A stretch of 64,000 bases of DNA. Origin: Balneolaceae bacterium. GTDB taxonomy: Bacteria > Bacteroidota > Rhodothermia > Balneolales > Balneolaceae. Positions 56,643 through 57,749 of this stretch are shown here, one piece after another. The translations under genes were made by a program, and so were the position numbers. The notes beneath the pieces were generated by a model that saw nothing but the letters and a program-made list of their open reading frames with translations, had not been told where the DNA came from and searched no databases. The stretch lies in NCBI GenBank assembly GCA_017795005.1, contig CP051242.1:1760976-1824975 (forward strand), read 5' to 3'. Position 1 is the first letter of the stretch, and every line of letters starts with the position of its first letter.

Positions 56643-56684
56643 CCAACCTCCAACCTCCAACCTCCAACCTCCAACCTCCAACCT
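56643..56684. repeat. Perfect heptamer tandem repeat, 6 x CCAACCT
   Basis: Six uninterrupted copies of CCAACCT lie between rsgA (minus) and the NTF2-like gene (plus), ending 13 bases before the ATG at 56698. The unit is not a multiple of three and is perfectly conserved, so copy number is probably unstable. Open frames through it encode VGGWRLE-type peptides that are not real genes. Confidence 0.92.
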
Positions 56685-56697
56685 CCGGGTAACAATT

Positions 56698-57165
56698 ATG
56701 AAAATAATCCTACTGGTTTCTATTCTCTTCTTTTCGATAAATGCTCAAAGTCAAACTTCGGAAATAGATGCTTTTTAAAAAGAAACTTCCCGTACGGTTG
56801 AAGAAGGAGATTTCGAAGGGTATTCAGCAACCTTTCACGAAGAAGCTATTCTGGTAAATGGAATGGGACCAAGCAGTTATCCGATTTCGGTTGCATTATC
56901 AGGATGGAAGCAAGGTTTTGATGATACGAAAGCCGGTAAAATGAATGCCAGTGTTGAATTCAGGTTCTCTGAGAGGATTCATAGCGAAAGTACTGCTCAT
57001 GAAACCGGTATCTTTAATTATTCATGGCAAAATGATGGGGAAGAAATGCAATCCGTTTTGATCCACTTTCAGGCATTACTCACGAAAGTTGAAGACGAGT
57101 GGAAAATGCTGATGGAATATCAGATTTCTATAGCCACAGAAGAAGAGTGGATGGCACTTGATTAA
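56698..57165 (+). pseudogene. Exported NTF2/SnoaL-like gene broken by one in-frame TAA
   Basis: An ATG at 56698 opens a signal peptide (IILLVSILFFSINAQSQ), and the frame continues without shift to the stop at 57163-57165, except for a single TAA at 56776-56778 (codon 27). Downstream the frame reads like a DUF4440/SnoaL-type domain (EEGDFEGYSATFHEEAILVNG, FQALLTKVEDEWKMLMEYQ). A C-to-T change would turn CAA (Gln) into TAA. Intact length would be 155 residues. A restart at the ATG at 56863 would give a 100-residue fragment without signal. A sequencing error is also possible. Confidence 0.75.
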
Positions 57166-57210: not shown

Positions 57211-57296
57211 GTCATTCCCGCGAAGGCGGGAATCTAGGGCAGGGATAAAGCTCAGAACCTTAAATAACTCCAGATCCCTGCCTTCGCAGGGATGAC
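57211..57296 (+). repeat. Palindromic 86-bp repeat, left copy flanking GIY-YIG gene
   Basis: The element starts GTCATTCC and ends GGGATGAC; its 24-bp ends are inverted repeats of each other at 20 of 24 positions. Each end is itself a hairpin: ATTCCCGC/GCGGGAAT around GAAG (57214-57233), and ATCCCTGC/GCAGGGAT around CTTC. It is 84% identical (72/86) to the copy at 57664, with the same length and orientation. The centre, AAGCTCAGAACCTTAA, is unchanged between copies. It ends 48 bp before the GIY-YIG start codon. Confidence 0.9.
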
Positions 57297-57344
57297 TAAC
57301 AAAGAAAATTGTAAGGTGTATAGTTGAGAGTGATCTAACCATGC

Positions 57345-57653
57345 ATGAAAGAACCTTGTGTTTACATACTTTCAAATGCTCAAAGAACCGTTTTATATAC
57401 TGGCGTTACCAGCGATTTAGTAAACAGGGTATATCAGCATAAAAAAGGAGAAGGATCTAAATTCACATCAAAGTTTCGAGCTAATTTCCTGCTGTACTAT
57501 GAACATCATCAAACCATGTATCAGGCTATCCAAAGAGAGAAACATATTAAAAAATGGAAAAGAGAGTGGAAGTTGAATCTGATCCGATCATTAAATCCAG
57601 AGCTCAAAGATTTATGGAATGAAATTTTACCAAAAGGAAGGTTTCATTTTTAG
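57345..57653 (+). CDS. Single-domain GIY-YIG nuclease family protein
   Basis: This 102-residue protein is a stand-alone GIY-YIG domain. VYILSNAQRTVLYTGVT carries the two Tyr motifs (VYI and YTG), SDLVNRVYQHKKG the conserved Arg region, and EHHQTMYQAIQREKHIKKWKREWK the conserved Glu and basic helix. Members cut or nick DNA in a metal-dependent way, and the biological role of the short UPF0213/YhbQ-like group is poorly known. It lies between two direct copies of an 86-bp palindromic repeat, 48 bp and 10 bp from its ends. An alternative ATG at 57341 is out of frame. Confidence 0.88.
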   Translation: MKEPCVYILSNAQRTVLYTGVTSDLVNRVYQHKKGEGSKFTSKFRANFLLYYEHHQTMYQAIQREKHIKKWKREWKLNLIRSLNPELKDLWNEILPKGRFHF

Positions 57654-57663
57654 TAGATACTCT

Positions 57664-57749
57664 GTCATTCCTGCGGATGCAGGAATCTAGAGCTTGGAAA
57701 AAGCTCAGAACCTTAATTTACTCTGGATCCCTACCTTCGTAGGGATGAC
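57664..57749 (+). repeat. Palindromic 86-bp repeat, right copy flanking GIY-YIG gene
   Basis: This copy has the same length and orientation as the one at 57211. Stems are ATTCCTGC/GCAGGAAT around GGAT, and ATCCCTAC/GTAGGGAT around CTTC. Relative to the left copy, changed bases in each stem occur as pairs that keep the pairing (C-G to T-A and G-C to A-T). It begins 10 bp after the GIY-YIG stop and ends 4 bp before the stop codon of the minus-strand IMPase-family gene, for which it may also act as a 3' hairpin. Confidence 0.9.

Follow-up and report, generated by a model that had tools for sequence, protein, structure and literature searches.

Free-standing GIY-YIG homing endonucleases are well known, and to our knowledge no nuclease of the GIY-YIG class is known to act as a transposase. 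In pathogenic Neisseria, a GIY-YIG nuclease family named Ssn, said to have been described in Nature Communications in 2025, is reportedly a site-specific single-stranded nuclease associated with a repeat called NTS, and a Neisseria GIY-YIG protein is said to modulate natural transformation. Among short palindromic repeats, dRS3 represents the CGTC-1 class of the CGTC-tagged REPs (Di Nocera et al., 2013, PMC3733652). The same survey reported no dedicated enzyme for CGTC-type REPs and no transposase gene flanked by CGTC repeats, and it left open what spreads them.

The locus described here most likely combines a single-domain GIY-YIG nuclease gene with hairpin repeats that its product recognizes, and probably belongs with the GIY-YIG/dRS3 pair of Neisseria (Ssn/NTS). 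The window analyzed is a stretch of 64,000 nucleotides from a Balneolaceae bacterium whose 3.75-Mb genome is a single contig. In it, the gene (57345–57653, plus strand; a 309-bp ORF for 102 aa, PF01541) lies between two 86-bp repeats on the plus strand that share one orientation and are identical at 72 of 86 positions, the left (57211–57296) at a distance of 48 bp and the right (57664–57749) at 10 bp. Each is a GTC-tagged, REP-like dimer consisting of GTC, an 8-bp stem with a 4-nt loop, a spacer, and a second 8-bp stem with a 4-nt loop followed by GAC. In the left repeat, hairpin 1 (57211–57234, plus strand) is composed of GTC, ATTCCCGC/GAAG/GCGGGAAT, and C, with the A-type loop GCGNAGGC, and hairpin 2 (57273–57296, GTCATCCCTGCGAAGGCAGGGATC) has its tag on the minus strand; the right repeat contains hairpin 3 (57664–57687, plus strand, GTCATTCCTGCGGATGCAGGAATC) and hairpin 4 (57726–57749, minus strand, GTCATCCCTACGAAGGTAGGGATC). 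The window tags are AGTC and TGTC. Between the two copies, compensating changes occur at positions 9/18 (C-G to T-A) and 70/77 (G-C to A-T), and the core AAGCTCAGAACCTTAA is invariant. The initial annotation had described both the bracketing of a lone GIY-YIG gene and the paired stem changes around a constant core; the former proved exact to the base, and the latter was confirmed. Just upstream, a short tandem array with the 7-base unit CCAACCT (56646–56690) precedes a small secreted-protein-like frame (56700–57165), which has a stop at 56776–56778 and is an apparent pseudogene adjoining the repeat-gene-repeat unit.

The protein has little beyond its GIY-YIG domain, which covers residues 4–78 of 102 (64 bits). 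Residues Y7, Y18, G20, R28, H32, E65, and N84 are conserved in at least 96% of 143 homologues, and the active-site residues of the window protein are intact. Among named homologues, the nearest comes from a Balneola sp. MAG (71%), and the nearest solved structures are the UPF0213 GIY-YIG proteins 1ywl and 1zg2, which match weakly (E 0.001–0.004). PADLOC gave no match that would file the window system among defence systems. A phage origin was rejected, the phage matches being weak and partial only. A homologue was also found in two Neisseria gonorrhoeae records (NZ_CP119140.1 and NZ_CP119142.1); these records of about 2.17 Mb are labelled as plasmids and look like misfiled chromosomes. The gonococcal homologue (L289), which we take to be the published Ssn, is identical to the window protein at 45 of 94 positions (48%) and lies in a dRS3 repeat cluster with the window-type hairpin GTCATTCCCGCGNAGGCGGGAATC. 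The hairpin pattern had 186 raw matches in the 2.17-Mb gonococcal record, compared with 32 for the reversed control.

In the window genome, the hairpin pattern occurs at 16 sites, as against 0 for the reversed pattern, and this count is above chance. Four of the sites are the window hairpins; the remaining copies are mostly double hairpins of 70–100 bp, none of which adjoins the GIY-YIG genes found there. The initial annotation had named copies scattered with no link to GIY-YIG genes as evidence that would count against it. Most window-genome copies do lie away from such genes; their position is as expected of non-autonomous copies, yet it is that counter-evidence in its weakest form. The genome contains eight GIY-YIG matches: one UvrC-sized (639-aa frame), one in a 296-aa frame, and six small. 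Five of the six small genes, the window gene included, are bracketed by a repeat pair of their own family (flank scores 52–119). Two of these five paralogues (L011 and L012) contain an in-frame stop, which suggests turnover and decay of such genes. The sixth small gene (L016, G000:C1:1012316–1012579) is tRNA-associated and forms, with L335–L352, a second GIY-YIG subfamily. Among 17 of these loci scanned with ARAGORN, 8 have tRNA-Gly(GCC), and others have tRNA-Val, -Ser, or -Met nearby. A second tRNA 3′ part recurs downstream of the gene, with a short GTC-preceded hairpin in place of the T arm (e.g., GTCGTCCCGCTGAGGCGGGAAGTC), so that these loci look like a tRNA-derived version of the repeat bracketing.

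The survey covered 80 homologous loci in named genomes spanning many phyla, plus about 100 in relatives. The upstream and downstream flanks matched each other in 114 of 161 loci; among segments lying 1 kb away, the figure was 0 of 143, and among mismatched pairs, 5%. Within the named genomes, 40 of 78 flank pairs exceeded the 99th percentile of mismatched pairs. About 29% of the homologous loci had no matching flanks at the threshold used. The density of GTC-preceded hairpins was 2.7/kb within 200 bp on both sides of the GIY-YIG genes, 0.33/kb at 200–500 bp, and 0.12/kb beyond, i.e., about 22-fold higher close to the genes than far off, whereas hairpins preceded by other triplets stayed at 0–0.5/kb throughout. 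The earlier proposal that this type of repeat is tied to single-domain GIY-YIG genes is therefore strongly supported. Chance and plain terminators are rejected on the density profile together with the two-sided flank matching. It is true that intergenic inverted repeats are common and that REPs often lie downstream of genes (PMC3733652), but it is hardly credible that ordinary intergenic hairpins, such as terminators or mRNA stabilizers, flank this small gene by chance, given that the two-sided matching is gone 1 kb away (0/143), that the GTC tag is specific, and that the loop is matched to the protein clade. Hairpins were present both upstream and downstream of the gene in 49 loci; in 32 of these, the nearest tags pointed outward, with a median span of 398 bp. 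The window belongs to a rarer class (9 of 49) in which the nearest hairpins have inward tags, and its gene is flanked by complete double hairpins in direct orientation.

Repeats and genes were also tabulated by genome. B-type repeats co-occurred with the gene in 9 of 9 versus 2 of 50 genomes, a comparison that is partly circular because a flanked gene itself brings two repeats; for A-type repeats, the figures were 4 of 4 versus 5 of 55, from a hand-made table uncorrected for relatedness. A-type repeats are abundant in four genomes (G011, G018, G026, and G032) in which a close A-type gene was not found, and repeats of the window family persist in genomes with no close copy of the gene. In G011, four A-type hairpins spaced about 395 bp apart (G011:C12:19008–20216) have no detectable GIY-YIG gene, and a tblastn search of the A-repeat clusters of this genome found none. 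On plasmid p1 of Planktothrix agardhii, a homologue with flanking GTC-type repeats (L294) has an MmeI-type restriction-modification gene on one side and the DISARM gene drmA on the other. Because the pairing recurs across many bacterial phyla with repeat and enzyme mutually matched, gene and repeat together resemble a single small selfish unit that is possibly mobile.

The matching of repeat and enzyme was observed in both stems and loops. Protein identity was correlated with stem-arm distance (Mantel rho −0.41; the lowest of 1,000 permutations was −0.15). The loop labels required 20 changes on the protein tree, compared with 38.9 when shuffled (0 of 200 shuffles were as low), in a tree of 103 columns for 164 rows in which many forks are open and near-copies inflate the clustering. 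The loop classes (GCGNAGGC, GAACTTGTTTC, and CTTGA types) track this tree across phyla, and the GAACTTGTTTC-like loop occurs in two separate protein clades, one from Bacteroidota/Balneolota and the other from Sphingobium-like bacteria. In a search for covariation in which the tag and loop were fixed and the arm positions were free, 137 of 159 copies with the A (window) loop were fully paired, versus 41 with shuffled partners, as were 61 of 64 copies with the B (second) loop, versus 17.5. One stem position of the window hairpin showed each of the four Watson-Crick pairs. The covariation, thin as evidence from the two window copies alone, is strong over the 159 hairpin copies. Because the stems vary by compensating changes while the loops stay fixed, the simplest reading is that the recognized object appears to be a folded strand, of DNA or RNA; such changes could also result if one arm were corrected by the other.

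Mobility was assessed from filled and empty sites. One GIY-YIG locus provided an exact pair, filled in G018 and empty in G028, two species of one genus whose flanks are 91–92% identical there. The filled site reads AAAGGAC, the unit GTCATCC...gene...GGATGAC, and GTCAATTAAATGG; the empty site reads AAGGATGAAGTCATTTAGATGG. The inserted unit measures about 432 bp, has the outward GTC tags of its two hairpins as its limits, lies beside GTCA, and is a paralogue with the B-type loop, related to the window copy but distinct from it. As regards the marks of an insertion sequence or MITE, the ends at this one site are inverted, and there is no target-site duplication beyond the ambiguous GTCA. Among non-syntenic, dissimilar loci, the point at which DNA homology stopped was no more than 5 nt from the outer tag in 15 of 35 cases upstream and 15 of 33 downstream, most clearly in L098/L099 (about 405 bp) and L084/L085 (380 bp), a pattern that can also arise with separately inserted repeats. 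The initial suggestion that repeat-gene-repeat is carried as a unit thus gains support from one exact empty/filled pair and from the frequent termination of homology at the tips of the repeats, but no empty site was found for the window copy: at the neighbouring suhB, the gene order of relatives lacking the gene and repeat differs, and therefore no clean joint was obtained.

Other sites of this kind were less informative. A second G018 locus (L193) is absent from G028, but its joint is uninformative, as the insertion falls within a palindrome of about 55 bp that is duplicated. A comparison of G018:C15:469909–470592 with G028:C33:227925–228059 reveals an insertion that includes a GIY-YIG unit and is flanked by duplicates of another palindrome (CCTGTAGGGGGAATTCATGAATTCCCCCTACAGG, about 55 bp), which may be a mobile repeat of a different kind. 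Three sites (L188, L037, and L174) are rearranged between the two genomes, and the L042 site is empty in G007, where divergence is too great to place the joint. Comparisons of plasmid strains yielded no second strain. Where G018 and G028 differ in a gene-less double hairpin, they differ over the whole intergenic stretch, and no clean joint was obtained. In G018, these double hairpins are asymmetric, with the loop GCGNAGGC at one end and CGGCGNATGCC at the other; because locus L064 has the identical two ends around a gene, we read the gene-less double hairpins as non-autonomous copies.

Some of the same comparisons bear on homing or gene conversion. Here, standing repeats would be the targets; a solo repeat would be nicked, the gene would be copied in by recombination between repeats, and recombination between direct repeats would in turn leave a solo repeat. 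Locus L013 of the window genome is a repeat-gene-repeat in direct orientation, and its relative G001 has a single decayed solo repeat and no gene; the window pair is likewise direct, and free-standing homing endonucleases of the GIY-YIG type are familiar. Against this, the clean empty site of G028 lacks a repeat and shows just GTCA next to the joint, and the ends of the G018 unit are inverted, not direct. Occupation by a homing endonuclease destroys the recognition site in an allele; L013 and G001 do contrast a repeat-gene-repeat with a solo repeat, but the repeats are still intact in the occupied sites. We regard homing as possible but doubtful, and prefer a probable mobile unit made of an Ssn-like nuclease gene and GTC-tagged REP repeats.

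In such a unit, a repeat that becomes single-stranded, on the lagging strand, in a repair tract, or in DNA acquired by transformation, would fold into a hairpin. The nuclease would recognize the unpaired GTC tag and the loop at the hairpin apex, not the letters of the stem, and we infer that it would nick at the tag or close to it. Where hairpins with outward tags stand at both ends of a gene, the whole could then be excised or copied as a unit of roughly 350–550 bp, which we suppose to be joined beside another GTC site. Gene-less double hairpins would be non-autonomous copies of the two ends of the unit, and the window copy would be a variant whose gene has a whole double hairpin on each side, the two in direct orientation.

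Alternatively, another enzyme, such as a RAYT, might move the repeats, with the GIY-YIG protein acting as a passenger or as a brake on the uptake or recombination of repeat-marked DNA. The reported effect of the Neisseria protein on natural transformation would fit such a role, as would the persistence of repeats with no close copy of the gene. This is rather improbable, however, given that the match between gene and loop holds across phyla, that the GIY-YIG gene lies inside the inserted G018 unit, and that no transposase gene flanked by CGTC repeats was reported (Di Nocera et al., 2013, PMC3733652). A more specific form of the preferred reading is that Ssn-type GIY-YIG nucleases are the missing dedicated mobilizers of CGTC-REPs, that repeat-gene-repeat is an autonomous element of about 350–550 bp with the gene-less double hairpins as its non-autonomous derivatives, that the loop and tag of a folded single strand are recognized, and that matched enzyme/loop pairs diversify within one genome; taken together, we give these propositions an even chance. 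A direct test is within reach, given that enzyme lineages and loops are matched in different phyla and that one unit is exactly inserted. If the reading is true, repeat-gene-repeat units would be among the smallest self-mobilizing units of bacteria, and every enzyme with its loop would offer a sequence-specific cutter of single strands, ready for use.

Compared with free-standing GIY-YIG homing endonucleases, the system shares a small GIY-YIG nuclease and apparent selfish spread, but the window protein has no extra DNA-binding domain, and its apparent target is a folded hairpin repeat rather than a unique gene sequence. CGTC-REPs are interspersed palindromes of 20–40 bp that form head-to-head dimers, have an unpaired CGTC at one end (PMC3733652), and resemble the hairpins of 23–24 nt found here at 16 sites and in dimers of 70–100 bp. 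In the hairpins studied here, GTC is always present, but the base before it is A or T in the window and C in many other phyla, and the partner is a GIY-YIG gene. As in REP/RAYT systems (REPtrons), a gene is flanked by its own hairpin repeat and accompanied by scattered gene-less copies. RAYTs are HUH tyrosine transposases of the IS200/IS605 type with the tag GTAG rather than GTC, whereas the window protein matches PF01541 only; the data support a system that works like a REPtron, and we withhold membership because a tyrosine transposase is absent. We file the window system as Ssn-like on the strength of the homology and repeat tests run here. As with Ssn, the protein is a single-domain GIY-YIG homologue of the Neisseria protein, 48% identical to a gonococcal protein that itself lies among repeats with the hairpin GTCATTCCCGCGNAGGCGGGAATC, and its cognate repeat occurs both around the gene and in many genomic copies. 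In contrast to Neisseria, with well over 100 repeats, the window genome has about 16 hairpins, its gene is bracketed by direct double hairpins, and at least five parallel enzyme-repeat pairs occur in this single genome.
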